From Epilithonimonas zeae (GTDB lineage Bacteria; Bacteroidota; Bacteroidia; Flavobacteriales; Weeksellaceae), in the NCBI RefSeq assembly GCF_900141765.1, contig NZ_FSRK01000001.1, positions 1,364,001 to 1,428,000 on the forward strand: a stretch of 64,000 nucleotides of DNA, in the 5' to 3' direction. Below the pieces are notes generated by a model. It did not search any database. It worked only from the letters and a program-made list of their open reading frames with translations, and was not told the DNA's origin. Of this stretch, positions 23,388-62,055 are shown in pieces. Every line of letters begins with the position of its first letter. The stretch's first letter is position 1. The translations under genes were made by a program, and so were the position numbers.

Positions 23388-23464
23388 GCCCCGGCCTGAG
23401 TGGAGCTCTTTTTCTTGAAAAGAAAAAAGCGGGAACGGAGGACGGATAAAGGCGCTCAAATAAT
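23388..23464 (+). repeat. dispersed structured element, copy A
   Basis: Starts GCCCCGGCCTGAGTGGA, has an A/T stem TCTTTTTCTT (23407) with AAGAAAAAAG (23420), then GCGGGAACGG and ends GCTCAAATAAT. It is much more GC-rich than its surroundings and is homologous in layout to elements at 38451 and 61947. It is the shortest of the three, with a loop of only 3 bases. Confidence 0.7.
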
Positions 23465-23474
23465 ATTTAAATAA

Positions 23475-23502
23475 AAATGCCACCTTATAAAAGATGGCAT
23501 TT
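23475..23502 (-). terminator. terminator of the pyrophosphatase gene
   Basis: AAATGCCACC (23475-23484) pairs with GATGGCATTT (23493-23502) with one mismatch; T-rich sequence follows on the minus strand. Confidence 0.65.
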
Positions 23503-23513
23503 GGTATTTTTGA

Positions 23514-24134
23514 TTATTTCAATTTTTCAACGAAATTATCTGTATAATCTTTTTGTGAGGCAATAATGACTTGTTTTGCCTGATCTGCGCCGTAAACCAA
23601 ATCTATTTTCACTTTTGCAGGTTCTGTTGGCAAGTTTTTGTAGCTCAAGAAATAGTGTAACAAACGGTTAACTTCTGCTTTTGGCAACTCAGAAATATCC
23701 CTGATGTGACCGTAAACCTGATCTTCTACCAGAACTGCAATAATCTTGTCATCAGCTTCTCCTTTGTCAATCATTTGGAAACCTCCAATTGGAATCGCCT
23801 GCAAAATAATGTTACCAGAAGTGAAATTGTGCGAGCTAAGAACGCAGATATCCAAAGGATCGTGATCGCCTTCTGTAACGTCTGTTGCGCCAGTTGAAAC
23901 CGCTAAATTCTTAACTTCATCCTCGCAATACGTTCTTGGAACGAAACCGTACATCGCAGGAATAATGTTGGAAAATTTCTGTGGACGATCCACTTTAAGA
24001 TAACCACTTTCTTTATCTACTTCATATTTTATAGTGTCCGTTGGAACGATTTCTACAAAAACGTTTACAATCTCAGGAGAATTTTCTCCAGCAGAAATCC
24101 CGTGCCAAGGATGTGCTTTAAAACTAGGAATCAT
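23514..24134 (-). CDS. ppa: family I inorganic pyrophosphatase
   Basis: A 206-residue soluble pyrophosphatase hydrolysing PPi to two phosphates. Active-site blocks are intact: KYEVDKESGYLKVDRP, YGFVPRTYCED, and the metal-binding EGDHDPLDICVLS (DxDPxD). IPIGGFQMIDKGEADDKIIAV is the next conserved block. There is no signal peptide. It lies 7 bases downstream of a membrane-anchored hypothetical gene, and they probably share a transcript. Confidence 0.95.
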   Translation of the reverse strand: MIPSFKAHPWHGISAGENSPEIVNVFVEIVPTDTIKYEVDKESGYLKVDRPQKFSNIIPAMYGFVPRTYCEDEVKNLAVSTGATDVTEGDHDPLDICVLSSHNFTSGNIILQAIPIGGFQMIDKGEADDKIIAVLVEDQVYGHIRDISELPKAEVNRLLHYFLSYKNLPTEPAKVKIDLVYGADQAKQVIIASQKDYTDNFVEKLK

Positions 24135-24141
24135 GTTTATT

Positions 24142-24651
24142 TTATATTATTTTGTTAAGTTCTTTTCTAAGATTCTCAATCGTGTCCGAAATGTAATCTT
24201 CGGAGTTAAGATAACTCATCAGGAAAACAGTTTTGAAGTCTTCTAATTTTGAGTTTTCATTCAGTTCCTCATAGGTTTTATGAAGGGCTTGGATGACGTT
24301 GTTTTTACTAGTCAAGATATCTTGCCAGGAAGATTTTGAAATGTAAAGTTGCTGGGAAGCATTGTATTCAAACTCTTCTGTGATATTTTTTTCAGTAAGA
24401 AAAACGAATTCGTGAGGCTGAAGACCTTTATCGAATTTCATTACAAGATTGGATGGCTTAAGTCTTTCTAAGAATAAAGTCATTCTTTCTAAAGCCTGAA
24501 GCTTGATCTCGCTGTTTGATTTTGTTGCAAGGAAATTGATTTCCTGTTTTTTGAGTCTGATAAAACTGTTAACGAATTGTTTCGCAAAAACCAAGAATGG
24601 CAATGCGATGATAACTGCAACAGCGTAAGGTAAATAATCTGAATCAAACAT
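24142..24651 (-). CDS. membrane-anchored hypothetical protein (169 aa)
   Basis: One N-terminal membrane helix (YAVAVIIALPFLVFAKQFVN) is followed by a soluble alpha-helical domain with conserved-looking segments KLQALERMTLFLERLKPSNL, PHEFVFLTEKNITEEFEYNA and SKSSWQDILTSKNNVIQALH. Proteins with this layout are found widely in Flavobacteriia as a DUF, with no known role. It precedes ppa with only a 7-base gap. Confidence 0.75.
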   Translation of the reverse strand: MFDSDYLPYAVAVIIALPFLVFAKQFVNSFIRLKKQEINFLATKSNSEIKLQALERMTLFLERLKPSNLVMKFDKGLQPHEFVFLTEKNITEEFEYNASQQLYISKSSWQDILTSKNNVIQALHKTYEELNENSKLEDFKTVFLMSYLNSEDYISDTIENLRKELNKII

Positions 24652-24700
24652 ATCTGAAATCGGATTGCAAAATTAATACTTTTTGACTTAATAAAGAATT

Positions 24701-25606
24701 TTAATTTAGAAAGAATAATTTCTTAATAATCTTCAAGATTAAGTTCTTTTTGCTAACCTGAATACAAGGATAAGGTTTCAATTCAGGTCGAAAACCACGG
24801 AAAAATTCTTCCACAGCAGGAATCTCGCTACCTTCAAAATCAAAGATTTTGGTTTCTATATTTTCAGCGATTACTTTATCTATTAAATAAGATGACCCAC
24901 TCAATTTTACATAGTCTCTTTCATTGTAAGTGCCTAATAGTGTCAAAGAATAGTCTTCTCTATAAACAGCAATCATATTAATCAATTTCTGATGATAGAA
25001 AAAACCGTAGAAATCTAATTTATCATTAAGATGAAATTTTGATAAAAGATTAATAAAGTCTTCCAAATCTTTAGCGTCTGCACCTAAGCCTGTACTTCTG
25101 ATAAAATTTTTAATAGTTTGTAAATCAAAATTTTTAATAATTTCAGAATTATCCAAAACTTCTTGATCTAACCTAAGTTTTCTTTTTCTTTTTGGTGAAT
25201 ATTTTTGTCTTACAGTTTCATATTTATCCGGAAAAATCAAGAAGTTTTTTCTTTTCTTTAATGGTTTTGAAAATGAATTAGCATCGTTGAATCCATAGTA
25301 GACAATTAAAAAATGTTTGACAAAATAAGTATAGAACAAATCATTTATTTCTGTGGAATCAATTTTGGAAAAAATGCCCAGTTGCTGACAAAGCTTAGGG
25401 TTAATGACAATCCTAATTCCAAATTTATAAATCAATGGAACGGGCATCACCGCTTCATAATCTTTATAAACCAGTAATTCCCAATTTTTATCTGTGCTAA
25501 TGTCTAAGAAAATACGTTCAGCGTATAATTTCTTCTGAACAGAATTTTCAATACATCTATTGTACTTTTCAAAATTAATTTCTTGATATTTCAATCGTTT
25601 AATCAT
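24701..25606 (-). CDS. GNAT/FemAB-like hypothetical protein (301 aa)
   Basis: A soluble 301-residue protein. The pattern RKNFLIFPDKYETVRQKYSP, a basic KRKRKLRL stretch, DLQTIKNFIRSTGLG, and the C-terminal IETKIFDFEGSEIPAVEEFF with RGFRPELKPYP resembles the GNAT-fold acyltransferases related to FemAB. In these, the FEGS-x-I-x-x-V-x-x-F-x-R-x-F block is typical. The substrate is unknown. It overlaps radC by 4 bases (ATGA), so it is translationally coupled. Confidence 0.65.
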   Translation of the reverse strand: MIKRLKYQEINFEKYNRCIENSVQKKLYAERIFLDISTDKNWELLVYKDYEAVMPVPLIYKFGIRIVINPKLCQQLGIFSKIDSTEINDLFYTYFVKHFLIVYYGFNDANSFSKPLKKRKNFLIFPDKYETVRQKYSPKRKRKLRLDQEVLDNSEIIKNFDLQTIKNFIRSTGLGADAKDLEDFINLLSKFHLNDKLDFYGFFYHQKLINMIAVYREDYSLTLLGTYNERDYVKLSGSSYLIDKVIAENIETKIFDFEGSEIPAVEEFFRGFRPELKPYPCIQVSKKNLILKIIKKLFFLN

Positions 25607-26280
25607 AAAATCCCTTCTTCTTTGAAACTATAAAATTTATTTTGAGCAATAATAATGTGATCTAGTAATTCTATATCCAACAAATTTCCAGCTTCATTAA
25701 TCTTATTTGTAATACTAATATCTTCCTGACTTGGCTTCAGACTTCCTGCAGGATGATTGTGTGCAACAATGATTCTAGTAGAAAAATGTTCCAAAGCTGT
25801 TTTGAAGATTACTCTTACATCAGCCACAGAATTTGCAATTCCACCTCTGAAAAGACAGGTTTTATATAAAATCTTGTTTTGATGATTCAGGAAAATCGCC
25901 CAGAATTCTTCTGTTGACAAATCTGAAAGATGTGGCTGCAAAACTTCAAAAACGTCTTTGCTGCTGGAAATCTGCTGTCTTTCGAGAACTTCCTGTTGAG
26001 ATTTTCTGTTCCCGATTTCCAACGCCGTTGCAATAGAAATAGCTTTTGCCTCACCTACTCCTTTGAACTTCATCAAATCTTTTATAGATAATTGACTTAA
26101 TCTGTGCCAGTTATTTTCTACCGAATTCAAAATTCTTCTTGCCAATTCTACAGCAGATTCCTCACGATTTCCACTTCCCATAATGATTGCCAGCAGTTCC
26201 GAATCGGAAACTGAAGCTTTCCCTTTCAACAGGAATTTTTCTCTTGGGCGGTCGTCTTCCGCAAGGGATTTTATACTCAT
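25603..26280 (-). CDS. radC: RadC-family JAB/MPN domain protein
   Basis: A 225-residue protein with an N-terminal UPF0758 helix-hairpin-helix part (DRPREKFLLKGKASVSDSEL, KFKGVGEAKAISIATALEIG) and a C-terminal metal-binding JAMM motif (VAHNHPAGSLKPSQEDISIT). RadC has a disputed DNA-repair role; the JAMM motif suggests a metalloprotease or nuclease-like fold. It overlaps by one base the preceding L,D-transpeptidase-like gene and by 4 bases the next gene. Confidence 0.92.
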   Translation of the reverse strand: MSIKSLAEDDRPREKFLLKGKASVSDSELLAIIMGSGNREESAVELARRILNSVENNWHRLSQLSIKDLMKFKGVGEAKAISIATALEIGNRKSQQEVLERQQISSSKDVFEVLQPHLSDLSTEEFWAIFLNHQNKILYKTCLFRGGIANSVADVRVIFKTALEHFSTRIIVAHNHPAGSLKPSQEDISITNKINEAGNLLDIELLDHIIIAQNKFYSFKEEGIL

Positions 26281-26879
26281 TAGTTATAGGCGTAAAGAAT
26301 TATTTTTTTGTTCGATTTGTCAATATGTTGCTCCAAAATCTTGAAAAAATCATCAGAAACCATTGGACAGCCAAAACTTAAACAAATATCTGTTTTTTGT
26401 TCAACATCTGGAACACAACTCAATCTGTGCAAAACAATAGCTCTTTTTCTCGCATTACTATTGGTTTCGTCTAATCCTGTTAATCGATATGATAAACCGA
26501 ATTGACCTTTATATTTCTCCTCAATTAAATATTTTCCTAAAGATGAACAATGAGAATTTTCCAAATTACTGAACTTCAAACCGTTCTTAGTTTTTCCATT
26601 TTCTGAGCCGTCGCCGTGGGCAACCAAAGCTTTTTGAAGAATTTTTCCGGTTTTAATATCAATGACGAAAAACCTGAATTTGGAAGATGCAATTGAAAAA
26701 TCAATTAAAAAAGCTTTATTAGAATTGTAATCTGAATCTTTTACAAAATCTTTTATTTCAGAGATTTTTTGAGAAAATTTATCTTCAGTGTTAATATAAT
26801 TAACCGATTGATTTTCCTGAGATTTTACCTCGCAGGAAATCAATAAAAATGATAAAAATATTAGTAAAAATGTTTTCAT
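26280..26879 (-). CDS. L,D-transpeptidase catalytic domain (YkuD_2-type) lipoprotein
   Basis: A 199-residue protein with lipoprotein signal (TFLLIFLSFLLISC). The mature domain has AHGDGSENGKTKNGLKFSN, IVLHRLSCVPDVEQ and the catalytic-site motif LSFGCPMVSDDFFK (SxGCP). The family cross-links or anchors peptidoglycan in the periplasm. The catalytic Cys is present; activity is inferred from the family. It is co-transcribed with radC (1-base overlap). Confidence 0.8.
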   Translation of the reverse strand: MKTFLLIFLSFLLISCEVKSQENQSVNYINTEDKFSQKISEIKDFVKDSDYNSNKAFLIDFSIASSKFRFFVIDIKTGKILQKALVAHGDGSENGKTKNGLKFSNLENSHCSSLGKYLIEEKYKGQFGLSYRLTGLDETNSNARKRAIVLHRLSCVPDVEQKTDICLSFGCPMVSDDFFKILEQHIDKSNKKIILYAYN

Positions 26880-26904
26880 TTGTGTTTAATAATGAAAGTA
26901 TAAT

Positions 26905-27306
26905 TTATTTTGCAATTACTTCAATTTTCGTATATCGAAAAACTTTTCCTTTTTTAGCTCCTTTATTTAATTGTTTATCTGTAAAATAATTTGGATAACC
27001 ATTTTCTTCAACCAAACTTCCTGTAAGTTTAACAATTAGGGGAAGATTATTACCTTTCCATAAATCACTGGCGTTTTTCACCCTATTATTAATCGGCTCT
27101 AAATAATAAAAATCATTCTTATTTTTCCAATTAGGACAAATACAACCAATTACATTGTAAGAAAATATTACAGTTGTTTTTTTCTTTTTTAACAGAGGTA
27201 TGTCTTTATTTAATTTTGATTTTGTATTGCGAATAGAGATATCTTGCGACAAAATCAAGTTCGGAATTAATAACAAGAGAACTAAAAATCTGTATAGTTG
27301 ATTCAT
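26905..27306 (-). CDS. secreted hypothetical protein (133 aa)
   Basis: Signal peptide ([20 protein letters not shown]) followed by a ~110-residue mature protein with a CIC motif ([11 protein letters not shown]), a [10 protein letters not shown] block and a strand-rich C-terminus. No family is recognised. It overlaps the lolD-type gene by 4 bases (ATGA) and so is translated with it, but nothing in its sequence ties it to lipoprotein transport. Confidence 0.65.
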
Positions 27307-27974
27307 CCCAAAACAATCTGCCCATCCTTCATAACCAACTTTCTATCCGTACTTTCTGCCAAAACAGAATTATGGGTTACAATCACGAATGTCTGCTGAT
27401 ATTTGTCTCTCAAATCAAAAAATAACTGATGAAGTGCATCCGCATTTTTGGAATCTAGGTTTCCGGTTGGCTCGTCAGCGAAAATAATTTTTGGAGAATT
27501 AATCAATGCTCTGGCAACCGCCACTCTTTGTGCTTCTCCACCTGATAATTCTGATGGTTTGTGATGCAATCGACTAGCGATATTCAAATCCTCAAACAGG
27601 GAATGTGCTTTTTCAATGACTTCTTTTTCAGCAATTCCACCGATTCTTGTTGGTAACAAAACATTTTCTAAAGCCGTGAATTCTGGCAACAATTGATGAT
27701 TTTGAAATACAAAACCGATATTTTTATTACGGAATTTTGACAATTCTTTATCTTTCATTTTCAAGAAAGAATTACCATCCAGACTGATTTCTGTTCCGTA
27801 TTTATCAATATTAGAAGGATGGTCTAATGTTCCCAAAATTTGAAGTAAAGTAGATTTTCCTGCTCCGGATTCTCCCACGATAGAAATTACTTCACTTGGT
27901 TTTATATGTATGTCAACACCCTTCAGAACTTCTAAAGTTCCATAAGATTTGTGTATATTTTTTGCTCGAATCAT
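27303..27974 (-). CDS. LolD-like ABC transporter ATPase
   Basis: A 223-residue ATPase of the MacB/LolD/FtsE class. Walker [10 protein letters not shown] (~residue 34), Q-loop [17 protein letters not shown], signature [15 protein letters not shown] and Walker [17 protein letters not shown] are all intact. In this class the partner permeases are FtsX/LolC-like and are not in this neighbourhood. Lipoprotein release is the likely role (inference), as the gene stands apart from any permease. Confidence 0.88.
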
Positions 27975-27993
27975 TTATTAATGTGATATTGAG

Positions 27994-30321
27994 TTATATT
28001 TTGGTCAATTTAGCAAATTTCAGGATAAGATTTTTCTCGCCTTCATTTTTGAAAATGACTTTTGCTTTGATATTTTGCGGGTCTGTTCCGTCCAAAAATT
28101 CCACTTTTCCAATTCCGAAACGGTCGTGTCTCACGTTGTCTCCTACCTGAATATCTTCTGAAGACGAACCACTTGGATTGATGATTCTTGCAGTAGCAAT
28201 TGGTTTCAATTGTTTAGGGACTGGAGTGTTTACATTTCGTTCAATTGTTTTCTTTTCTTCTTTTTTCTTGAAAAATCGAGGCTCTGAAGGTGTATCATCA
28301 AAGATATTAGAATTGATTCCCGAACGGTTGATGAATTTCAATTCCGTTACAGGATTTATCATTTCTACATATTTGTCATCTATTTCGCTTAAAAACCTTG
28401 AAGGTTCAGCGTCAGTGATTTTCCCCCATTGGAATCTGGAAACCGCATAAGTGAAAAACACTTGCTTTTCAGCTCTCGTCAACGCCACATAAAACAAACG
28501 TCTTTCTTCCTCCAATTCTTCTCTTGTCGACGAACTCATAAAGCTTGGAAAAAGATTTTCCTCGAGTCCAACTAAGTGAACCACAGGAAATTCCAAACCT
28601 TTTGATAAGTGGATGGTCATCAACGATACTTTATCTCCGTCATCTTCTTTATCAGTTTGAGTATCTGCAGACAACGCAATATTTTCCATAAAATTGGACA
28701 AACTTGGGTCACCACCTTCAATCTGAATTTGCTCCTCGATGAAACCCTGCATTGAGTTAAGCAATTCCTGAATATTCTCTACTCGGGAAATACCTTCCGG
28801 TGTTGCATCTTCTTTCAGGAATTTGATGAGTCCGCTTCGCTTTGCTACTTCCATCGCTACATCGTAAACATTTTCTGTTTTCAACATCACTTGGAACGCT
28901 TTTATCATTGCCCAGAAATCACCTAACTTGGTAAGAACGCCATTATTTAATCCTAATTGTGGTGCATAAAACCCAAGATTATCAAGAACTTGAGCAACAG
29001 GAACATTTTGAGAATCTGCAAAAACAACTAGCTTATTTTGGGTAGTTTCGCCGATTCCTCTTGCCGGATAATTGATGATTCTTGACAACGCTTCGGAGTC
29101 ATTTTCATTAACCAAAATTCTAAGATAAGCGAGCAAATCCTTCACTTCTTTCCTTTGGTAGAAAGATAATCCGCCATAAACTTTGTAGGGAATATTCTTT
29201 TTTCTCAATGCATCTTCAAAAGCTCTAGTCTGCGAATTGGTTCTGTAAAGAATAGCAAAATCAGAGAAATGACGCTGTTGCGTGTTATGTAATTCGAAGA
29301 TGTTGGCAGAAACGAAATTCGCTTCGTCCGCATCGGAAAGACTTCGGTAAACTTTTATTTTGTCTCCAATTTCATTCTCACTGAAAACATTTTTCTTGAA
29401 TTGTTGTAAGTTTTTCGAAATCACAACATTTGCCGCATCCACGATATTTTGAGTTGAACGGTAATTTTGTTCCAAAGAAACCGTCACTGCATCTGGATAA
29501 TCTTTTTTGAAATTCAGAATGTTGTGGATATTTGCGCCACGAAAAGAGTAAATCGATTGTGCATCATCTCCAACTACACAAATATTTTCAAATTTAGATG
29601 CTAAAGCTTTCACAATCAAATACTGAGAATGGTTCGTATCTTGATACTCATCCACCAAAATATATCTGAATCTGTCTTGGTATTTTGCTAAAACTTCAGG
29701 GAAGCGAGTTAGTAATTCATTGGTTTTTAATAATAAATCATCGAAATCCATTGCACCGTTTTTGAAACAAGCTTCAACGTATTTACGATAAATGTCACCC
29801 ATCAATCTCATATTCGCTTTTTCATCAGCTTCCATCAGGTCAGGATTATTGAAATAAGCATTGACTGTAATAAGATTGTTTTTATATTGAGAAATTCTTG
29901 ATAAAACTTTCTTGGCTTTATAGATTTCTGAATCGATGTTCATATCCTTGATGACTTTTTTCATCACATTCAGAGCATCCTGCATATCATAAATCGTGAA
30001 ATTGGAAGGGTAACCGAGATGATGACCTTCGCTTCTCAAAATTCTAGCAAAAACCGAGTGAAAAGTTCCCATCCAAAGCGAGCGTGCATTGCTGTCTCCA
30101 ACGAGTTTCGCGATACGTTCCTTCATTTCCTTTGCCGCTTTGTTGGTAAAAGTTAAAGACAAAATATTGAAAGGGTCTACTCCATTCGTAATCAGATGCG
30201 CAATTCTCATCGTGAGCACACGCGTTTTGCCAGAACCTGCACCAGCCAAAACCATCAGGGGGCCTTGCAAGGTGGTAACTGCTTCTAACTGAGGCTCATT
30301 CAGTCCTTTCAGATAATCCAT
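27994..30321 (-). CDS. pcrA: UvrD/PcrA-family superfamily 1 DNA helicase
   Basis: A 775-residue 3'-5' helicase. All SF1A motifs are visible: motif I LAGAGSGKTRVLTMR, LTFTNKAAKEM, motif II RYILVDEYQDTNHSQ, motif III GDDAQSIYSFRGAN, motif IV LEQNYRSTQNI, motif V SLMTIHLSKGLEFPVVHLVG and motif VI RLFYVALTRAEKQ. The C-terminal tail has the typical KVEFLDGTDPQNIKAKVIFK Tudor-like end of PcrA. Roles include repair and removal of replication obstacles. Confidence 0.95.
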   Translation of the reverse strand: MDYLKGLNEPQLEAVTTLQGPLMVLAGAGSGKTRVLTMRIAHLITNGVDPFNILSLTFTNKAAKEMKERIAKLVGDSNARSLWMGTFHSVFARILRSEGHHLGYPSNFTIYDMQDALNVMKKVIKDMNIDSEIYKAKKVLSRISQYKNNLITVNAYFNNPDLMEADEKANMRLMGDIYRKYVEACFKNGAMDFDDLLLKTNELLTRFPEVLAKYQDRFRYILVDEYQDTNHSQYLIVKALASKFENICVVGDDAQSIYSFRGANIHNILNFKKDYPDAVTVSLEQNYRSTQNIVDAANVVISKNLQQFKKNVFSENEIGDKIKVYRSLSDADEANFVSANIFELHNTQQRHFSDFAILYRTNSQTRAFEDALRKKNIPYKVYGGLSFYQRKEVKDLLAYLRILVNENDSEALSRIINYPARGIGETTQNKLVVFADSQNVPVAQVLDNLGFYAPQLGLNNGVLTKLGDFWAMIKAFQVMLKTENVYDVAMEVAKRSGLIKFLKEDATPEGISRVENIQELLNSMQGFIEEQIQIEGGDPSLSNFMENIALSADTQTDKEDDGDKVSLMTIHLSKGLEFPVVHLVGLEENLFPSFMSSSTREELEEERRLFYVALTRAEKQVFFTYAVSRFQWGKITDAEPSRFLSEIDDKYVEMINPVTELKFINRSGINSNIFDDTPSEPRFFKKKEEKKTIERNVNTPVPKQLKPIATARIINPSGSSSEDIQVGDNVRHDRFGIGKVEFLDGTDPQNIKAKVIFKNEGEKNLILKFAKLTKI

Positions 30322-30409
30322 TCTATTCTCAAAATTTTAAGGTAACAAAAATAGCTTTTTTTATGCAATTTCTCAGTCGTTATAAATTTGAATTTCAACA
30401 ATTATGAGG

Positions 30410-31548: not shown

Positions 31549-31558
31549 AATTAAGGGC

Positions 31559-38350: not shown

Positions 38351-38406
38351 TTTGTCATTCCGTAAGAATCTAAATTTCACTGTCGAGATTCCTACGGAAT
38401 GACAAA
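38351..38406. repeat. long inverted-repeat element D, copy 1
   Basis: Arms of 21 bases, 38351-38371 and 38386-38406, pair with one mismatch; the core word is GTCATTCCGTAGGAATC. Loop of 14. The word is identical to the arms at 61844-61913. A CGCAAAGGCG word at 38236 also recurs before the second copy. No gene is seen in 38227-38625. Confidence 0.85.
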
Positions 38407-38450
38407 GATTGTGGTTAAGCTTTTATGTTGATTGGAAGACAAAATTCCTA

Positions 38451-38560
38451 GCCCCGATTGCAGCGGCATCCTTTTTTGTCTTAACTGGAAAAGTTGTTTT
38501 GATAACAAAATTTCTGAGACAAAAAAGATATAGCGGAAAGCGGGAAATAGCTCCTAATTC
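38451..38560 (+). repeat. dispersed structured element, copy B
   Basis: Starts GCCCCGATTGCAGCGGCATCC (first 20 shown in part), with a perfect 10-bp stem CTTTTTTGTC (38471) and GACAAAAAAG (38518), a 37-base loop, then GCGGAAAGCGGGAAATAGCT. Same layout and strand as 23388 and 61947. Confidence 0.75.
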
Positions 38561-38625: not shown

Positions 38626-40218
38626 ATGTCTTTACAACAAGAAATCAGCAGAAGAAAAACTTTCGGAATCATCTCCCACCCCGATGCGGGAAAAACCACT
38701 TTGACGGAAAAACTCCTGCTTTTTGGAGGAGCGATTCAGGAAGCTGGTGCTGTAAAATCCAACAAAATCAAAAAAGGTGCGACATCCGACTTTATGGAAA
38801 TCGAGCGTCAGAGAGGGATTTCTGTGGCAACTTCGGTTTTGGCTTTTGAATATAGAGACCATAAAATCAATATTCTGGATACGCCTGGTCACAAGGATTT
38901 TGCGGAAGACACGTACCGAACGCTGACTGCGGTTGACTCTGTAATTGTTGTGATTGACGTTGCAAAAGGGGTTGAAGAACAGACGGAAAAGCTGGTTCAG
39001 GTTTGTAGAATGAGAAACATTCCGATGATTGTTTTCATCAACAAATTGGACCGTGAAGGTAAAGATGCTTTTGATTTGCTGGATGAAGTGGAACAAAAAT
39101 TAGGTTTGACTGTTTGTCCGCTTTCTCTGCCAATTGGTATAGGAAGTGACTTCCAGGGGATTTATAATATTTGGGAAAATAACATTCAGTTGTTTTTGGA
39201 AGAGAAAAAACAGAAAGTTGGAGAATCTCTGAAAATTGATGATATCAACGATTCTCAAATTGATGAATTAGTTGGTGAAAAAGCGGCGACGACTTTGCGT
39301 GAGGAATTAGATCTGATCCAGTCGGTTTATCCGGAATTTAATCGTGAAGATTATATGAATGGTGATCTGCAGCCGGTTTTCTTTGGTTCTGCTTTGAATA
39401 ATTTTGGCGTTCGTGAGTTATTGAATGCTTTCATCGATATTGCACCAATGCCACAACCGAAAGAAAGTGAAACGAGATTGGTAAAACCTGAAGAAAATAA
39501 TTTTACAGGATTTGTCTTCAAAATCCACGCAAATATGGACCCGAAACACAGAGACCGTCTGGCATTTGTTAAAATCGTGTCCGGAACTTTCAAAAGAAAT
39601 GAAAATTACCTGCTTGTAAGAGAAGGTAAAAAAATGAAGTTTTCCTCTCCCAACGCGTTCTTCGCTGACAAAAAAGAAGTTGTGGACGAGAGTTTCCCAG
39701 GCGATATTGTAGGACTTCACGATACGGGAAGTTTCCGAATTGGTGATACTTTGACAGCTGGTGAAAAATTGAGTTTTAAAGGAATCCCAAGTTTCTCTCC
39801 GGAACATTTCCGTTATATCAATAACAATGATCCATTGAAAGCAAAACAATTGGCTAAAGGTGTTGACCAGCTAATGGATGAAGGTGTTGCTCAGTTATTT
39901 ACGCTGGAAATGAACAACAGAAAAATCATCGGAACGGTTGGTGCGCTTCAGTACGAAGTTATCCAATATCGTTTGGAGCACGAATACGGAGCGAAATGTT
40001 CTTATGAGCCAATCAGCATCCATAAAGCGTGCTGGGTGGAAGCGGATGAAAAATCTGAAGAATTTAAAGAGTTTGCGAGACTGAAACAGCGTTTCTTAGC
40101 GAGAGATAAATATGACCAATTGGTTTTCTTAGCTGATTCGTCTTTTACGATTACAATGACTCAGGAAAAGTTTCCGAATGTGAAACTGCATTTTATTAGT
40201 GAGTTTGCTAATGACTAA
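38626..40218 (+). CDS. prfC: peptide chain release factor 3
   Basis: A 530-residue translational GTPase that recycles RF1/RF2 after termination. G1 ISHPDAGKTTLTEKLLLFGG, G2 region ERQRGISVATSVLAFEY, G3 DTPGHKDFAEDTYRT and G4 FINKLDREGKD are intact. RF3-specific domain IV follows (QLFTLEMNNRKIIGTVGALQ and YEVIQYRLEHEYG), with EPISIHKACWVEADEKSEEF near the end. The gene has its own leader downstream of the repeat elements and is closed by a strong terminator. Confidence 0.95.
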   Translation: MSLQQEISRRKTFGIISHPDAGKTTLTEKLLLFGGAIQEAGAVKSNKIKKGATSDFMEIERQRGISVATSVLAFEYRDHKINILDTPGHKDFAEDTYRTLTAVDSVIVVIDVAKGVEEQTEKLVQVCRMRNIPMIVFINKLDREGKDAFDLLDEVEQKLGLTVCPLSLPIGIGSDFQGIYNIWENNIQLFLEEKKQKVGESLKIDDINDSQIDELVGEKAATTLREELDLIQSVYPEFNREDYMNGDLQPVFFGSALNNFGVRELLNAFIDIAPMPQPKESETRLVKPEENNFTGFVFKIHANMDPKHRDRLAFVKIVSGTFKRNENYLLVREGKKMKFSSPNAFFADKKEVVDESFPGDIVGLHDTGSFRIGDTLTAGEKLSFKGIPSFSPEHFRYINNNDPLKAKQLAKGVDQLMDEGVAQLFTLEMNNRKIIGTVGALQYEVIQYRLEHEYGAKCSYEPISIHKACWVEADEKSEEFKEFARLKQRFLARDKYDQLVFLADSSFTITMTQEKFPNVKLHFISEFAND

Positions 40219-55437: not shown

Positions 55438-55470
55438 AAAAAGAATAAACTATAAAGTTTTTAAAACAAA

Positions 55471-55494
55471 AAAACCTGCTAAACAGCAGGTTTT
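55471..55494. terminator. convergent terminator
   Basis: AAAACCTGCT (55471-55480) with AGCAGGTTTT (55485-55494), loop AAAC. It serves both the TIR-like gene and the sugar MFS gene. Confidence 0.85.
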
Positions 55495-55515
55495 CATTTA
55501 TATAAAGCAAAAATC

Positions 55516-56937
55516 TTAATGTCCAGACTTAGCATCCGCATCTTGCTTCACGTGGCTAAGATACTTAGTACAATAAGCTCCAAAAACCAAAATCACAAGA
55601 TAACAGAACACAGGAATTACAAAAGAATGTTGAACTCCAAAAGTATCTGCCAGATAACCTTGGAAAATCGGAACAATAGCACCTCCTAAGATGGCCATTA
55701 CAACCAAAGAAGAGCCTTGGCTCGTGTATTTTCCTAAACCAGAAATCGCTAATGTATAGATATTAGAGAACATAATAGAGTTGAAAATCCCTATTCCTAA
55801 AACGCTGTACATTGCCAGTTCGCCGTGGTTCAACATTGTGGAGATTAATAACAAAACGTTGATTCCTGCAAAAATAGACAATGTTCTTGCCGGAGCAGAT
55901 TTCCCGATGAAGAACGCAATGAAATTCAAAGCAATAAATACCAAGAAGAAACTAATCTGTGCAAACGTCAAATCCACAATACTGAAAATCACCAAGAAAA
56001 CAGCTGCAGCCGCTCCTAACATATACAAAGCTTTCTTACTTTGACTAATCGAGTGATTCAGAGAGATTGCTCCAAGGAAACGTCCAATCATCGCACCACC
56101 CCAATATAGAGACAGGTAGTTTTTACTTACAGATTCGGTAAGGTTCATTACTTGTGGCTGTTCCAGAAAACTGATGATAAAACTTCCAACCGCAACTTCA
56201 CCACCTACATAACAAAACATCGCCAAAACGCCGAACTTCAAATGATTGTGTTTCAAAGCACCGAAACCTTTTACCACTTCTTCTCCAGCTACTTTGAAAT
56301 CAGGAAGTTTAACTCTTGAGATAATCAAAGCCACCAATAAAAGAATTCCGGCAAAAATCAAATAAGGAATCTTAGTCGCTGCTGCAGAGAAAGAACCGTC
56401 TGCCTCAGAGAACAATTCGAAAATCAAATGTCCACCCAAAACCGGCGCAATCGTTGTCCCGAATGCGTTGAAAGCCTGTGTCATATTCAGTCGGCTGGAT
56501 GCAGAATCTTCCGGACCCAAAAGTGAAACGTAAGCGTTCGCCGTGATTTGTAGCACTGTGAATCCCAGTCCTAAAATAAATAAAGCGCCTAAAAACAAAG
56601 GATAAGACGACAAACTCGCCGCTGGAAAAAATAAAACACACCCAAATGCCGCCAAGAAAATTCCGAAAAGAATCCCTTTCTTATAACCGACTTTATCAAT
56701 CGGGTCGCCTTGTGTGGTTGAAATTAAAAAGTAAATTAATGAGCCAATAAAATACGCTCCAAAGAAACAAAACTGCACCAACATCGATTGGAAAAACGTC
56801 AGATTGAACAGCTGTTTCAGGTAAGGAATAAGAATGTCATTCATACACGTAATGAATCCCCACATAAAGAACAAAAGGGTAATCGTAATCAGCGGAACGG
56901 TGTAACTCCTTTTGGTTCCTACTTCATTATTTATCAT
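55516..56937 (-). CDS. sugar MFS transporter (fucose permease/FGHS type)
   Basis: A 473-residue, 12-helix MFS protein: PLITITLLFFMWGFITCMND and ILIPYLKQLFNLTFFQSMLV near the start, GYKKGILFGIFLAAFGCVLF, LLGPEDSASSRLNMTQAFNA and FGTTIAPVLGGHLIFELF. These are marks of the FucP-like sugar:H+ symporters. The second half has SFIISFLEQPQVMNLTESVS and LYWGGAMIGRFLGA. It probably imports glucose or a glucan-derived sugar for the GH3 cluster next to it. It starts at ATG 56937. Confidence 0.92.
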   Translation of the reverse strand: MINNEVGTKRSYTVPLITITLLFFMWGFITCMNDILIPYLKQLFNLTFFQSMLVQFCFFGAYFIGSLIYFLISTTQGDPIDKVGYKKGILFGIFLAAFGCVLFFPAASLSSYPLFLGALFILGLGFTVLQITANAYVSLLGPEDSASSRLNMTQAFNAFGTTIAPVLGGHLIFELFSEADGSFSAAATKIPYLIFAGILLLVALIISRVKLPDFKVAGEEVVKGFGALKHNHLKFGVLAMFCYVGGEVAVGSFIISFLEQPQVMNLTESVSKNYLSLYWGGAMIGRFLGAISLNHSISQSKKALYMLGAAAAVFLVIFSIVDLTFAQISFFLVFIALNFIAFFIGKSAPARTLSIFAGINVLLLISTMLNHGELAMYSVLGIGIFNSIMFSNIYTLAISGLGKYTSQGSSLVVMAILGGAIVPIFQGYLADTFGVQHSFVIPVFCYLVILVFGAYCTKYLSHVKQDADAKSGH

Positions 56938-57058
56938 ATATTTTTAATTTTAAAAGAGGCTAAAGATAGCCCCTTTTGTTGATAATATATTATTTTGAGA
57001 CAATAAATTTGTCACTAAAAAGTCAAGTTTAATATTGATTATTTTATTTGACTAAAAT

Positions 57059-57128
57059 CTCTCGCAGATTGAGCAAATTTTGCAGATTAGTCAATTAAAA
57101 ATCTGCTTAATCTGTAAAATCTGCGAGA
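57059..57128. repeat. dispersed inverted repeat family F, copy 2
   Basis: TCTCGCAGATT at 57059 and AAATCTGCGAGA at the other end form an inverted repeat, with internal GAGCAAATTTTGCAGATT. Part of it is an exact match in opposite orientation to 60775-60793. It lies 9 bases from the 3' end of the GH3 gene. Confidence 0.75.
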
Positions 57129-57136
57129 ATATAATT

Positions 57137-59596
57137 TTAATGTTTCAAATCCTCAAACTTCTCATCCGCAGGCAAAATATGCTGAACTTTCTCCACCACC
57201 AATTCTTTAGGAACAGAGAATTCCGCCGTTTGTTTGATGTCTAAAGAAGACGCTCCGACAGAAATTTTATAATTTCCTGCTTCTGCAATCCAAGCCGATT
57301 TTGCGGTTTCAAATGAAGCCAAATCTTTCGGGTTAAGAGTCAAAGTAATCGTTTGAGATTCTCCCGGTTTCAAATCTTTGGTTTTTGCGTACGCTTTCAA
57401 CTCAGATTTTGGTTTGTCAATCGTTTTTCCAGGAGCAGATAAATACAATTCCACCACTTCTTTTCCTGCTACTTTTCCGGTATTTTTTACATCAACTGTA
57501 ACTTCTAATTTATTATTAAAAGTTTTAGAATTCAGTTTTAAATTACTGTAAGCGAAATCCGTATAAGACTTACCATAACCGAATTCGTAAGAAGGTTTTA
57601 CATTAAATGTATTGAAATAACGGTATCCAACATACACACCTTCCTGATACGTCACATCTTTCGGATTATCCGCAGGAATTCCAGGGAAATTCCTTGCAGA
57701 AGCGTGGTCTGTATAATTCACAGGGAAAGTCATCGTCAGTTTTCCTGAAGAATTTACTTTTCCTGAAATCACATCTGCAACAGAATGTCCACCCTCCTGA
57801 CCTGGTTGCCAAGCTAAAAGAATTCCATCTACTTTATCTTTCCAAGACGCAGTTTCAATTACGCCTCCGATGTTTAAAATCACAACCACTTTCTTTCCTT
57901 TTGCGTGGAACGCTTTTGAGATTTTATCCAGCATTTCGATTTCTTCCTTTGCCAGATTGAAATCATCGTTCACTACCCTATCACCGCCTTCTCCTGAGTT
58001 TCTTCCCAGAGTCACGAAAGCTATTTCAGAAGTTTCCGCTTTTTTAGCATAGAAAGCATCATCCAATTTCATTTCAGACAATCTTCCCGGAAGTGCTAAA
58101 ATCCCTCTTGCTTTTCTGCTTTCTTTTTCAGCCGCTTCTTCTTTCTCAGCAAATGGTTTGTACAAATCAACCAGTTCTTTGTCCAATTTATATCCTGCTG
58201 CGTTCAAGCCTTCCAAAAGTGAAACCGTGTGCTTGTTGTTCACACTTCCACTTCCCGTTCCGCCGGTAATCCAAGCGTAAGAAGTCACTCCGAATAACGA
58301 AACTTCTTTCTGTTTGTTGGCAAAAGGCAAAGCATTTTGTTCATTTTTAAGCAAAACCATTCCTTCTGCTGCAGCGTTTCTCGTCACTTCTGCGTGTTCA
58401 GCTAGATTTGGCTTGTCACTGTATTTGTACTGTGCGAAAGTCGGTGTTTTGAAAACATATTCCAAGATTCTTTTCACATTAAGATTCGCAACTTCCGGAG
58501 ATAATTTCCCTGAGTTTAAAGCTTCCAACAAGACTTTTTTCTGAGCAGGAATTCCGGGCATCAAAAGGTCATTTCCTGAATTCATCTGTTTTACAACGTC
58601 AGAAATTCCACCGCTTCTAATCGATTCAAATCCCGGAAAACCTCCAAACCAGTCGGTCATTACAATTCCTTTGAAACCCCATTCATTTCTCAAAACCTGA
58701 GTCAGTAAATCTTTTGAATCTGAAGTATAAACGCCATTCACTTTGTTATAAGATGACATCACCGTCCAAGGCTGAGATTCTTTCACCGTGATTTCAAAAT
58801 TTCTCAGATACAATTCTCTCATTGCTCTTTCGGAAACGTGAGCGTTGATGGTCAAACGGTTGGTTTCTTCGTTATTCGCGGCGAAATGTTTGATCGAAGT
58901 TCCTACACCTTGAGACTGGATTCCATTAACGATGGCTGCAGCAGTTTTCCCTGAAATTAATGGGTCTTCCGAATAATATTCGAAGTTTCTTCCGTTCAAT
59001 GGATTTCTCTGGATGTTCAGAGCCGGCGCTAAAAGTACGTCAACACCGTATTCTTTCACTTCATTTCCCATTGCTTTTCCAACCTGCTCCAACAATGTTT
59101 TATTCCAGGTTGAAGCCAAAGCTGTCCCAACAGGAAAAGCCGTTGCATAATATGTTTTTGAATCATTATCTCTTGTTGGCTGAATTCTCAAACCTGCAGG
59201 TCCGTCTGCAACAATTGTCGCTGGAATTCCAAATCTGTCGAAAGAATCTGTTCCTCCAGCAGCTCCGGGAACCAATCCTTGTTTTGAATCTCCGACAGGA
59301 CCTGTCAAAACTTCAATTCCAGGCATTCCGGTTCCGATGAGAAGATTTACTTTTTCTTCGTTGGTCATTTGCTTGATGATGGCATCAATTCTTTTGTCCA
59401 CCGAAAGACGTGTGTCTTCCCAAACATCTAATTTTCCGTTTTTGTTAGAATCTTTAAATGTTTTTCCGTCAACCGTTACTGTTGCATTTTTAGTCTGAGC
59501 ATTCGCAAACGGCGATGCAGCCAATAAAGCCAGGAATAATCCTGAATATTTTGCTTTCTGAGAAAGTCCTATCAGCGTTGATATATTCTTCTGCAT
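57137..59596 (-). CDS. GH3-family beta-glucosidase (BglX-like)
   Basis: An 819-residue secreted enzyme. Signal peptide (GLFLALLAASPFANAQ) is followed by an EF-hand-like calcium loop (DSNKNGKLDVWED), the GH3 N-domain (IPATIVADGPAGLRIQPTRD, IKHFAANNEETNR, nucleophile Asp in GIVMTDWFGGFPG), the C-domain (GEGGDRVVNDDFNLAKEEIE, LLAWQPGQEGGHSVADVISG) and a fibronectin type III-like end (EVTVDVKNTGKVAGKEVVEL). It should release glucose from beta-linked oligosaccharides. It heads a probable operon with the nucleoside hydrolase upstream of it. Confidence 0.93.
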   Translation of the reverse strand: MQKNISTLIGLSQKAKYSGLFLALLAASPFANAQTKNATVTVDGKTFKDSNKNGKLDVWEDTRLSVDKRIDAIIKQMTNEEKVNLLIGTGMPGIEVLTGPVGDSKQGLVPGAAGGTDSFDRFGIPATIVADGPAGLRIQPTRDNDSKTYYATAFPVGTALASTWNKTLLEQVGKAMGNEVKEYGVDVLLAPALNIQRNPLNGRNFEYYSEDPLISGKTAAAIVNGIQSQGVGTSIKHFAANNEETNRLTINAHVSERAMRELYLRNFEITVKESQPWTVMSSYNKVNGVYTSDSKDLLTQVLRNEWGFKGIVMTDWFGGFPGFESIRSGGISDVVKQMNSGNDLLMPGIPAQKKVLLEALNSGKLSPEVANLNVKRILEYVFKTPTFAQYKYSDKPNLAEHAEVTRNAAAEGMVLLKNEQNALPFANKQKEVSLFGVTSYAWITGGTGSGSVNNKHTVSLLEGLNAAGYKLDKELVDLYKPFAEKEEAAEKESRKARGILALPGRLSEMKLDDAFYAKKAETSEIAFVTLGRNSGEGGDRVVNDDFNLAKEEIEMLDKISKAFHAKGKKVVVILNIGGVIETASWKDKVDGILLAWQPGQEGGHSVADVISGKVNSSGKLTMTFPVNYTDHASARNFPGIPADNPKDVTYQEGVYVGYRYFNTFNVKPSYEFGYGKSYTDFAYSNLKLNSKTFNNKLEVTVDVKNTGKVAGKEVVELYLSAPGKTIDKPKSELKAYAKTKDLKPGESQTITLTLNPKDLASFETAKSAWIAEAGNYKISVGASSLDIKQTAEFSVPKELVVEKVQHILPADEKFEDLKH

Positions 59597-59609
59597 AATT
59601 CTATATTTT

Positions 59610-60638
59610 TTACTTTTTGTTATTGAATAATTTTAATTTTGAATAGAAATCTTCGAACATCAATCGAGTGTCGAGCTGCGTATAGACTCTAATGTTCCTT
59701 CCTTTCGAATTGTATTCGTACAGTCCATTATCATTGATTTTCGGTGCATTTTTGATGACGTAAGAACTCGAAGATGGGTCTGCTTCAAATGAAGACTGTA
59801 AGGCCGTCAGCAAAACTAAAGGACTGTCACCCATAATGTAGGTTTCGCCGATTTTCAGATTGAATTTCTGAACCATTTCCATCAGGTCTTCAATCTTTTT
59901 AGTGAGATAAGCTCCGGTTTTTCCTTCAGGTTTTACTTTGGTTACGAGTTCGGCATAAGACATCAAAGTCTGTCGGTAAGCGTTTCTTGGAATTTGCCAG
60001 ATATTTAAGTTGGATTCATTGAAAACAACCTGTGCTGCTTTGATGTCGATTCCAAGATTGTATTCTAAAGGCGTGTAACCTGGAGGTGGCGTTGCCAAAT
60101 CGGGATATTCCGGACCGCCAATCCAAACGACGATAATTTTGTCTGCGATTTTTGGTTCCATTAAATAGGCACTTGCAACTTCCGTTAAACCTGCGCCACA
60201 AACCACGAATAAAGGATTTTTTTCATCCGCTTTCATTGCTTCTGCAACGATGGCTTTCGCACCTTCGGAAACATTAGGAGTTTTCAAATCTTTCAATTGG
60301 TCATTTGAACCCTGGAAAACTGAAAATTTGTTTTTCAAATTCATTACTTCCAACGTTTCGTTGACTCTTTTTACAGCATTTTCCGCAGTAATATCTGATT
60401 TGTCAAACGGGTCGCCTGGTTTTAAATGGGAACCGATAATTCCTTTGATTTCTGCGGAAGGCGAAAGAACCTGATGAACCAACTGAAATAAACCATCGGG
60501 GTCGCCACCAAAATCGTTATCGACGATAACGCGATAGCGGGGTTTTACGTATTTATCCATTTCCGAAATCACGGCAGAAGACTGTGCGGACACAGCCATT
60601 GTCGCAAAAAAAGAAACTATATTAAAAATTGATTTCAT
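59610..60638 (-). CDS. nucleoside hydrolase-family protein (secreted)
   Basis: A 342-residue protein with signal peptide (SIFNIVSFFATMAVSAQ). The inosine-uridine nucleoside hydrolase fold is indicated by VIVDNDFGGDPDGLFQLVHQ (Asp cluster that holds Ca2+ in the family), PLFVVCGAGLTEVASAYLM, KIIVVWIGGPEYPD and ETYIMGDSPLVLLTALQ. It may act on nucleosides or on another N- or O-ribosyl/glycosyl compound. It lies 13 bases upstream of the GH3 gene, so it is co-transcribed with it. Confidence 0.82.
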   Translation of the reverse strand: MKSIFNIVSFFATMAVSAQSSAVISEMDKYVKPRYRVIVDNDFGGDPDGLFQLVHQVLSPSAEIKGIIGSHLKPGDPFDKSDITAENAVKRVNETLEVMNLKNKFSVFQGSNDQLKDLKTPNVSEGAKAIVAEAMKADEKNPLFVVCGAGLTEVASAYLMEPKIADKIIVVWIGGPEYPDLATPPPGYTPLEYNLGIDIKAAQVVFNESNLNIWQIPRNAYRQTLMSYAELVTKVKPEGKTGAYLTKKIEDLMEMVQKFNLKIGETYIMGDSPLVLLTALQSSFEADPSSSSYVIKNAPKINDNGLYEYNSKGRNIRVYTQLDTRLMFEDFYSKLKLFNNKK

Positions 60639-60727
60639 TGTTTTAGGTTAACCAAAAAAGAGTTATTGATTATTTTCTGATAGGATTTTATCCTATCCTT
60701 TAGTAAATCGTCCCTTTGGGACTCTGT

Positions 60728-60795
60728 AAAATCTCTCGCAGATTATTCAGATAAAGTAGATTTCTTAATTTATTATCTGCAAAATTTGCTCAACC
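60728..60795. repeat. dispersed inverted repeat family F, copy 3
   Basis: AAATCTCTCGCAGATTATTC at 60728 and ATCTGCAAAATTTGCTCAA at 60775. The second word is the exact reverse complement of a segment of the copy at 57059. Adjacent is a perfect stem GATAGGAT/ATCCTATC (60679-60697). Confidence 0.65.
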
Positions 60796-60840
60796 TACTT
60801 GAGACTAAAGTCATTACAATTTTTATGATTTAATCAAATG

Positions 60841-61719
60841 CTATAAAAATTTGTGGAATTTCAGCCAATCCAAATACACATCCGACCATTTATCAACAGG
60901 AAGATTCTGTTTCCCTATTCCGAAACCGTGACCACCTTTTTCGTAGATGTGAAGTTCGGTTGGCTGTCCTGCTTCAAGCCATTTGTTGTACAACAAAACT
61001 GATTTTGGAGCCAACTTTAATTGGTCATCACTTGCAGCACAAATGAACAATGGTAAAGTCGTTGAAGGAATCTGAGTATCTAAAATCTCCTGACTTGGTC
61101 CGCCGTAAATCGAAGCTGCGAAGTTGGGTAACGTTGAAGCATCTTTACTGTGAAGAACGCTTTCCAAAATCACACTTGCACCCGCTGAAAAACCGATAAC
61201 ACCCAATTTTTCAGGATTGATATTCAGTTCTTTTGCGTGGGTTCTGATGTAGGAAATGGCCGTTTTGATGTCGTTTCCAGCCATTACTTTGATTGGAGCT
61301 GTTTTTGCGTCAAATGCTTTTCGGTCTTTGATGCCTTCCATCATTTCTTTGGCTGGGTCGTTGGATTTTGTTTCCAGTAATCTGTATTTTAAAACGATTG
61401 CCGTGATTCCGTTTTCTGCTAGTTTTTTGGCAACATCAATTCCTTCTCTGTTGATGGATAAACTTTGAAAACCACCCCCCGGAGCGACAACGATTACCGT
61501 TCCGTTGGCTTTCGCCTTGTCAGCTTCGAATATTAACATTGAAGGTTGCGCTACGTTGAAAACAACTTCTGTTTTGAACAATTCATTAAATTGCTGCGCT
61601 TCTTTTTGTGTCCAGTTTTCTGTTCCCGGTGCTTTTCCTTTGTATAATGGAATTGATTTTTGAGCGTTGATGGTTGTTAAACCTGTAAGAAGTAGACTTA
61701 CTATGATTAATTTTTTCAT
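60841..61719 (-). CDS. alpha/beta-hydrolase esterase (BD-FAE/AXE type), secreted
   Basis: A 292-residue hydrolase with signal peptide (LIIVSLLLTGLTTINAQ). Oxyanion region VIVVAPGGGFQSLSINREG, nucleophile Ser in GVIGFSAGASVILESV, acid region LPLFICAASDDQLKLA and catalytic His in EKGGHGFGIGKQNLPVD are all visible. It probably removes acyl groups from sugars. The target is inferred from the glycosidase neighbours. It starts at ATG 61719. Confidence 0.9.
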   Translation of the reverse strand: MKKLIIVSLLLTGLTTINAQKSIPLYKGKAPGTENWTQKEAQQFNELFKTEVVFNVAQPSMLIFEADKAKANGTVIVVAPGGGFQSLSINREGIDVAKKLAENGITAIVLKYRLLETKSNDPAKEMMEGIKDRKAFDAKTAPIKVMAGNDIKTAISYIRTHAKELNINPEKLGVIGFSAGASVILESVLHSKDASTLPNFAASIYGGPSQEILDTQIPSTTLPLFICAASDDQLKLAPKSVLLYNKWLEAGQPTELHIYEKGGHGFGIGKQNLPVDKWSDVYLDWLKFHKFL

Positions 61720-61843
61720 TTTGAATTGATTTTAATTTTTAATCCCGAAGTTTCGGGACTAAGTTTTTTTAATGTTGTTCTGCAAATTTTCCGTTCGCAA
61801 AGGCGTTCTACTTAGCAAAGACAAACAATTAGATAACAGTCTG

Positions 61844-61913
61844 TTTGTCATTCCGTAGGAATCTAAGCTCAGTATTTCAAATATCATTGTTGAGATTCCT
61901 ACGGAATGACAAA
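61844..61913. repeat. long inverted-repeat element D, copy 2
   Basis: Perfect 21-base arms, 61844-61864 and 61893-61913 (core GTCATTCCGTAGGAATC), 28-base loop. The arms match those of copy 1 at 38351 with one difference. It sits 33 bases before the structured element at 61947, in the same order and orientation as at the first locus. A CGCAAAGGCG word at 61796 and a CCCGAA/TTCGGG stem at 61744 lie further upstream. Confidence 0.9.
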
Positions 61914-61946
61914 AATGCTGTTGATTTTAACATCGAATTGCACGCA

Positions 61947-62055
61947 GCCCGACTTGAACGGAAATCCTTTTTTGCGAAAACTTCGAGTTCTATTTAGACT
62001 GAAATCGTCTGCAAAAAAGATTGGGAGTGGAAGGCGGAATAGCTGCCCAAATAAT
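61947..62055 (+). repeat. dispersed structured element, copy C
   Basis: Starts GCCCGACTTGAACGGAAATCC (first 20 shown in part), with a perfect 9-bp stem CTTTTTTGC (61967) and GCAAAAAAG (62011), a 35-base loop, then GTGGAAGGCGGAATAGCT and CCCAAATAAT. Same layout and strand as 23388 and 38451. Confidence 0.75.

Follow-up and report, generated by a model that had tools for sequence, protein, structure and literature searches.

Three similar intergenic elements, with conserved ends and a variable loop, lie in a 64,000-nucleotide (nt) stretch of the Epilithonimonas zeae genome (contig NZ_FSRK01000001.1, positions 1,364,001 to 1,428,000; hereafter the window). An earlier note, made from the letters alone, had suggested that they are either an RNA or a mobilised palindromic unit, and had guessed at a link to the Flavo-1 RNAs of Rfam. 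Which of the two are they? The guess was right, in that the elements belong to Flavo-1 (RF01705). We consider it likely, though far from assured, that Flavo-1 is a family of chromosomal palindromic DNA repeats resembling the repetitive extragenic palindromic (REP) sequences and bacterial interspersed mosaic elements (BIMEs), and that its copies exchange their tips. What we establish here is the family in this genome, its structure, the sharing of sites in the sample compared, the replacement of tips, and a composite with a second palindrome. The family itself is known; what is new is its proposed nature as a DNA hairpin repeat that keeps its sites and exchanges its tips.

A high-copy family with paired arms and a variable tip

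All three elements are found on the + strand where the earlier note had placed them, with the ends, stem and variable loop that it described. The sole Rfam match at the gathering cut-off in the window is RF01705, at 38446-38551 (74.4 bits; cut-off 42), which corresponds to copy 2. In a search of the whole genome (4.08 Mb in 4 contigs, the window being C1:1364001-1428000), copy 3 scores 38.4 bits (E 1.9e-6), below gathering, and copy 1 is absent among the 125 RF01705 matches at E<=10. We therefore also rely on a covariance model, termed R1, made from 53 copies of this genome, with copy 3 included and copies 1 and 2 left out. Its window matches are 38438-38559 (104.6 bits), 61934-62052 (90.7 bits) and 23371-23461 (53.7 bits, E 1.4e-12), and the next best has an E of 0.24. 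Because R1 finds both copies 1 and 3, these two join Flavo-1 as well, copy 1 as a divergent subtype with GCGCC..GGCGC feet. The three elements are as follows.

23371..23461, + strand: copy 1, Flavo-1-type, subtype C (GCGCCCCGGCCTGAGTGGAGCTC...AACGGAGGACGGATAAAGGCGCTC), R1 53.7 bits; between convergent mgtE and inorganic pyrophosphatase genes
38438..38559, + strand: copy 2, Flavo-1, subtype A, RF01705 74.4 bits and R1 104.6 bits; between a sulfate-permease-family gene and prfC
61934..62052, + strand: copy 3, Flavo-1, subtype B (GCAGCCCGACTTGAACGG...GTGGAAGGCGGAATAGCTGCCC), R1 90.7 bits (in the training set)

Far from being three unrelated sequences, the possibility that the earlier note had named as fatal to its claim, the elements are members of a family with more than 100 copies in this genome: 113 of the 125 RF01705 matches have E<0.001, and 61 are above the cut-off. 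Three relatives with single-contig assemblies hold 106, 68 and 47 matches at E<=0.001. In a sample of 120 genomes from across the bacterial family, surveyed with fast filters and with copies per genome registered up to 36 (so that the top value means at least 36), 96 have a match at E<=1e-4 and 90 have one above the cut-off.

The fold can be read from the outside inward. Outermost is a weakly conserved left extension of ~25 nt. The basal stem that follows is GCAGC/GCTGC in some copies and GCGCC/GGCGC, CAAC/GTTG or CACC/GGTG in others, its two sides appearing to change in step (as judged by eye, with no control). Inward of this stem lie a CCG/CGG stem, a purine mismatch, two variable pairs and an internal loop. 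A further two variable pairs then lead to another, similarly built internal loop and to the tip; both loops are purine-rich. The tip is a hairpin of variable length, A/T-rich or otherwise. Over 114 copies of this genome, the purine mismatch swaps sides (A.G in 100, G.A in 11, other in 3), an A stands at the 3' side of the internal loop in both arms of all 114, and the right side of the loop reads GGA in 106. The same 114-copy parse, which replaced an earlier and looser parse of the arms (99 of 180 parsed), shows pairing in 98.9% of 794 cells. None of 500 shuffles reaches this value, nor do any reach the 156 cells changed on both sides or the covariation score of 0.559. Controls in which the arm alignment was slid pair at 62% at most. 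Compensatory changes, whose absence from the stem was the earlier note's other test of its claim, are thus numerous in the arms, and the description of a structured element with conserved ends and a variable loop is borne out.

Relative to RF01705, the elements described here form the same family, with copy 2 far above the cut-off and 61 copies of the genome above it, and they have the same core structure. The differences are that the arms fall into several subtypes, that a further basal stem and a left extension are present, that some copies have a companion palindrome and that tips are exchanged; in addition, the elements behave as a dispersed DNA repeat.

Sites kept between congeners and tips replaced in place

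Two of the window sites could be followed through many related loci by way of the gene beside them.

22076..23338, + strand: mgtE (magnesium transporter), left neighbor of copy 1; TIGR00400 380.7 bits, cut-off 232.75
38626..40218, + strand: prfC (peptide chain release factor 3), right neighbor of copy 2; NF001964 747 bits, cut-off 473

For a broader comparison, we used a congener, G008, of which 40 stretches of 20 kb (0.8 of 3.94 Mb) were picked around its copies, from among the 64 then listed, plus the prfC region. A site occupied only in E. zeae is detectable in this design only where it falls elsewhere within a G008 stretch. From E. zeae we took 113 copies, 112 from the RF01705 search and one more found by R1. 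Both flanks of 48 of these lie in one G008 stretch, and 47 of the 48 have an element there; the remaining site holds a remnant that has lost its core. The reverse comparison, which is biased too because the E. zeae stretches were picked around E. zeae copies, finds a counterpart region for 48 of 67 G008 elements and an element in 45 of these 48. Among the three left over, the one at L215 is actually present but filed under another locus id, that at L202:11850 could not be aligned, and that at L189:9997 (against L119) is a clean presence/absence difference of ~170 nt, the G008 element being missing in E. zeae.

Two single sites were compared over a wider range of relatives. Of 21 congener loci, 13 have an element upstream of prfC and eight have none or a remnant, although one of these eight stops at a contig end and the left neighbor is not the same in all loci. 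For the mgtE site, nine of the 18 loci L216-L233 give an R1 match; these 18 come from Epilithonimonas and from records filed under Chryseobacterium or Flavobacteriaceae. The 62 remaining loci, mostly Chryseobacterium, give none. Inspection by eye adds a divergent element in L225 and L226 and remnants in L216 and L218. By the comparison with G008, Flavo-1 sites appear to be old, and copies seldom change place between congeners in the sample compared.

What changes at these sites is the tip. By eye, 22 of the 47 sites shared with G008 carry a different tip; among them are L126:1501, where the difference is confined to the innermost tip, and L073, which is a matter of judgement. A parser handled 38 of the 47 pairs and divided them evenly into 19 with tip identity below 0.70 (mean 0.49) and 19 above (mean 0.90); nine pairs went unparsed, and two of the 19 called exchanged (L110:4453 and L123) look by eye like parser truncations. 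The surrounding arms differ far less, with left outer arm identity of 0.87 at exchanged sites and 0.90 at the others, and right outer arm identity of 0.78 and 0.87, respectively. Left flanks do not differ between the two classes (0.69-0.77 at exchanged sites and 0.66-0.74 at the others, depending on the window of comparison). At 24 of the 47 sites, a paralog from the same genome is closer than the ortholog in both genomes, where G008 paralogs were compared only among its 67 elements. Apical hairpins have been substituted at their sites, and the new tip often resembles that of another copy in the same genome.

One clear case is L074, with an E tip, against L183:12623, with a CTTTTTCTTTTTT tip, where flank identities are 0.96 and 1.00. 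Further clear cases are L007, L069, L107, L002 and L024. The last of these has an identity of 0.97 to L099, which lies almost 2 Mb off, and shares GATGAAAAAG with it. G008 keeps a similar tip (0.91) at the L099 site but a different one at the L024 site, and so L024 looks like the recipient. An automated count of donors (43 parsed, 24 exchanged, 7 polarised) was set aside as unreliable, as it calls L001 and L004 exchanged despite identities of 0.97 and 0.95.

The two window sites followed above show the same pattern. At the mgtE site, E. zeae, L219/L220, L222/L227/L233, L224 and L230 have the same feet and five unrelated tips, one of them a perfect ATCCGCC-GCA-GGCGGAT. At the prfC site we see A, E and F tips plus an element of B/C type. 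Tip types also combine with arm subtypes: all eight strong matches to a GTCATTGCG-like tip fall within Flavo-1 copies, of which seven have A-type arms and one has B-type arms. For this one tip family, the idea that tips are free-living repeats is accordingly ruled out on the strong matches; there are in addition four weaker matches (E 0.07-0.8), two of which lie outside Flavo-1 copies. The earlier note's "mobilised palindromic unit" thus fits in part, since tips have been exchanged while whole copies rarely move between the congeners sampled.

A companion palindrome and repeats inserted in the arms

Some copies are part of a larger composite. The E. zeae genome contains 34 exact TTTGTCATTCCGNNRGAATCT sites and none of a control pattern. 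Of these companion palindromes (TTTGTCATTCCG), 21 stand to the left of a Flavo-1 copy and no more than 100 nt from it, none stands that close on the right, and 13 are found elsewhere. In addition, GTCATTCCG or its complement occurs within 250 nt on the left of 16 of 112 copies and on the right of one. Where a CGGAATGAC arm adjoins a copy (12 cases), the gap is 31-52 nt, and in 10 of the 12 it is 39-43. Flavo-1 and its companion therefore show the BIME type of arrangement, in which different palindromic units stand at regular spacing. In the window, copies 2 and 3 are composites of this kind and copy 1 is not. The companions, located by a pattern search of the E. zeae genome, are the following.

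38351..38406, no strand given: companion palindrome TTTGTCATTCCG..CGGAATGACAAA, left of copy 2
61844..61913, no strand given: companion palindrome TTTGTCATTCCG..CGGAATGACAAA, left of copy 3

The arms themselves can hold foreign repeats. The DNA searched has eight distinct contexts with CTTCGACA.GCTCAG.ATAAACT, and in five of them this repeat sits in the right GGA loop (L147, L149, L157, L189 and L207); the other right loop carries GTCGAACCACTTCGTTAGG in two of four (L176 and L229). Both short repeats occupy the same right-arm points at different Flavo-1 sites and in different species. Under the same rule, three further insert patterns in arm loops gave 0 of 2, 0 of 2 and 0 of 5, although the last of these is, by eye, part of an insert of ~47 nt in the left loop of six prfC-site loci that the rule missed. 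From this small sample, the unpaired loops of the fold may be entry points for foreign repeats.

A proposed folded DNA form, its possible agents, and the RNA alternative

Orientation and fold energy bear on whether DNA or RNA is the working form. Viewed in the orientation of 106 E. zeae copies, the left and right neighbor genes run -/- in 51 cases, -/+ in 19, +/- in 19 and +/+ in 17; thus 51 copies are antisense to both neighbors and 17 are sense to both. In G008, the sign of the GC skew changes near 2.85 Mb, and the leading strand inferred from it has 373 co-oriented open reading frames against 305. Relative to this strand, 47 of 67 copies run in the opposite direction (p 0.0013). Where the context is tandem, 22 of 26 copies beside leading-strand genes are antisense to them (22 to 4), against 7 of 19 beside lagging-strand genes (7 to 12), which partly rejects an orientation directed by genes. 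Because the antisense bias in tandem contexts holds only for leading-strand genes, replication explains orientation better than transcription does. Of the two strands, the + strand has the lower fold energy in 106 of 112 copies under DNA parameters and in 91 of 112 under RNA parameters, and it has the lower z-score in 97 of 112 as DNA and 59 of 112 as RNA, with mean z-scores of -1.86 and -1.06.

In the DNA-repeat reading that we prefer, the working form would be the + strand folded as single-stranded DNA. Tips would be exchanged between copies by ectopic conversion or by template switching on folded arms, through the ~20 nt of arm that the copies share on each side. The first candidate for the machinery would be a single-strand transposase of Y1/HUH type acting in trans, now or formerly. 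A narrower version, that Flavo-1 elements are site-bound hairpins trading tips by a dedicated or structure-driven process on folded single strands, with arm loops admitting foreign repeats (an in-place exchange of hairpin cassettes, with inherited addresses and circulating contents), is one that we offer tentatively.

Several points count against the DNA-repeat reading or blunt the evidence for it. Counts of covariation and folding are not independent events, because the copies are related as paralogs. Moreover, two of the five measures of the arms do not beat the shuffled controls: 68 of 500 shuffles reach the six of seven pairs changed on both sides, and 284 of 500 reach the 13 further pair types. 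Because the G008 stretches were chosen around G008 copies, shared sites were favored in that comparison. Right flanks are less alike at exchanged sites than at the others (0.69-0.70 versus 0.80-0.82), and the shared arms are short for RecA-type recombination. The 2.85-Mb boundary was set after a table had been seen that also showed the signs of the elements, and non-tandem contexts alone give 13 to 9, which is not significant. By the inferred direction of replication, the + strand is the leading-strand template and not the lagging-strand template used by IS200/IS605-type elements. G.T cells outnumber A.C cells 13 to 5 (p 0.10), too weak a difference to prove the strand. Finally, neither the E. 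zeae genome (at E<=0.001) nor that of G037 has a Y1_Tnp match, and RF01705 at gathering occurs beside Y1_Tnp in none of 46 loci, sampled from more than 150 as 30 strong matches with 1.5 kb flanks and 16 weak-scoring ones with about 3 kb flanks.

These last two results also count against the first rival explanation, in which a Y1/HUH transposase, IS200/IS605-like or similar to the REP-associated tyrosine transposases (RAYTs), moves the elements in trans and swaps tips on folded single-stranded DNA. We regard it as possible but doubtful. Across the 120 family genomes, 46 of the 51 that have at least 10 copies carry Y1_Tnp, as do 29 of the 69 others, whereas two other transposase families, DDE_Tnp_1 (31 of 51 versus 36 of 69) and IS110 (16 of 51 versus 18 of 69), are not associated with copy number and were dropped as candidates. 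Within-genus permutation gives p values of 0.025 for Y1_Tnp, 0.81 for DDE_Tnp_1 and 0.40 for IS110. The Y1_Tnp association persists in genomes of at least 2.5 Mb (p 0.0002), although genome size is a confounder (Spearman 0.50 with Flavo-1 copy count), such that the association may be phylogenetic or a product of size. The repeats found in the internal loops of the arm also favor a role for such an enzyme, as does TnpA_REP subclass 2.6, mostly from Bacteroidetes, which is reported to have atypical structures on its flanks and further copies of these in the genome (PMC6006769). Conversely, few new sites are seen, and the REP-with-RAYT arrangement, a Y1/RAYT gene flanked by its repeats, is not found for Flavo-1 in the 46 loci: R1 comes closest with a match 3.3 kb off in L137 (E 0.0002), and L059 has two weak matches (E 0.5 and 0.7). 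Judging from score and length, the 16 weak-scoring loci may be RAYT-like, and these too are without adjoining Rfam-level Flavo-1.

Somewhat less probable is the second rival, that Flavo-1 is a transcribed structured RNA (a small RNA or an untranslated-region element) whose arms are selected and whose tips are peripheral and free to change. The compensatory changes in the arms and the stable sites near genes would suit an RNA, as would the lower RNA fold energy of the + strand. A table row in Weinberg 2010 lists Flavo-1 with "y" for RNA and "n" for cis-regulatory, and passages of the Flavobacterium psychrophilum transcriptome paper report several 5' transcribed regions that coincide with Flavo-1 matches. 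The same passages describe the matches as indistinctly sense or antisense, with many outside transcribed regions, which argues the other way, as does the prevalence of copies antisense to both neighbors. An RNA is also favored by the weak promoter element TAnnTTT, which stands on the 5' side in 76 of 112 copies on the same strand and in 61 on the other. Against it, the fuller pattern TTG-N17-23-TAnnTTTG is found there in only 4 of 112 on either strand; its 3'-side counts are 8 (same strand) and 2 (other strand). Runs of U come after the right end of 31 of 112 copies and after the left end of 26 of 112 (with no background control). Thus, the RNA half of the earlier note's alternative draws no clear support from promoter and U-run proxies, from orientation or from RNA-fold z-scores. 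The wholesale replacement of tips, often by tips like those of other copies, furthermore resembles recombination and not drift.

That the elements are bidirectional terminators or insulators kept at gene ends is very improbable: among the 106 copies, a stop codon faces the right end in 70 cases, at a median of 31 nt and in 34 of the 70 at 25 nt or less, but the G+C-rich parts are at the base and A/T at the tip, U-runs are as scarce as given above, and E-type tips have no T-run. We give least credence to the proposal that SbcCD cleaves the palindromes and that repair from other copies then converts the tips; it would explain replaced tips at fixed sites, and SbcD (TIGR00619) is commoner where at least one copy exists (40 of 96 versus 4 of 24 genomes, nominal p 0.03), but there is no link at 10 or more copies (20 of 51 versus 24 of 69, p 0.70) or at 20 or more, and no SbcD match occurs in E. 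zeae or G008, between which tips differ, such that the mechanism is largely refuted for this pair, barring another nuclease. As a separate observation, the presence of this palindrome-cleaving nuclease is patchy in the element-rich genus, with a match in 4 of 13 sampled genomes and none in G000, G008 and seven more.

How, then, does Flavo-1 compare with known repeats? Like the REP/BIME sequences of enterobacteria and pseudomonads, it consists of high-copy intergenic imperfect palindromes near stop codons, with subfamilies and with mosaic composites at near-fixed spacing. Unlike them, it is longer, has two internal loops, keeps its sites while tips change, has no RAYT gene beside the copies examined and shows, by eye, no conserved GTAG foot. 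The feet read AGCCC, GCAGCCC or GCGCCCC, and in some A-type copies GTAG can be read within the left arm (GATAGTAGCGG), at positions that are variable. BOX/ERIC-type repeats are likewise modular palindromic intergenic repeats, for which we know of no tip exchange at orthologous sites. A further likeness is to integron attC sites, which are single-stranded DNA hairpins with conserved ends, extrahelical bases and a variable tip; unlike these, Flavo-1 does not stand in cassette arrays in the loci read, where attC boxes were not sought. The REP/BIME papers propose that mosaic repeats are made by transposases, and the structures flanking TnpA_REP subclass 2.6, as described in PMC6006769, share with Flavo-1 an occurrence in Bacteroidetes, atypical secondary structures and genomic copies. 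In the literature on the Flavo-1 motif RNA within our coverage, which leaves out preprints and most subscription papers, we met no description of it as a DNA repeat.

If the DNA-repeat reading is correct, an Rfam "RNA" present at more than 100 copies in some flavobacterial genomes may be a DNA repeat, and annotation pipelines would be recording DNA hairpins as small RNA genes. Covariation, the usual proof of RNA structure, would then arise in DNA hairpins too. The keeping of an address between species while tips are replaced separates two things that are usually lumped together as transposition; under the narrower version given above, it would amount to a distinct mode of repeat evolution. Tip exchange also leaves a natural record, open to counting, of recombination between repeats that are very short and structured.

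Some minor observations concern the neighboring genes and the Y1 loci. For the window mgtE protein, the nearest relatives come from Chryseobacterium sp. 36-9 and Epilithonimonas hispanica (97%), followed by other Epilithonimonas, which fits a window from that genus. Y1_Tnp matches lie near an RNase P RNA (L040) and a tRNA gene (L051). In L053, an Rfam Acido-Lenti-1 match at 1893-1938 (37 bits, at the cut-off) lies 54 nt downstream of a Y1_Tnp match and may represent the end structure of an IS200-like element.

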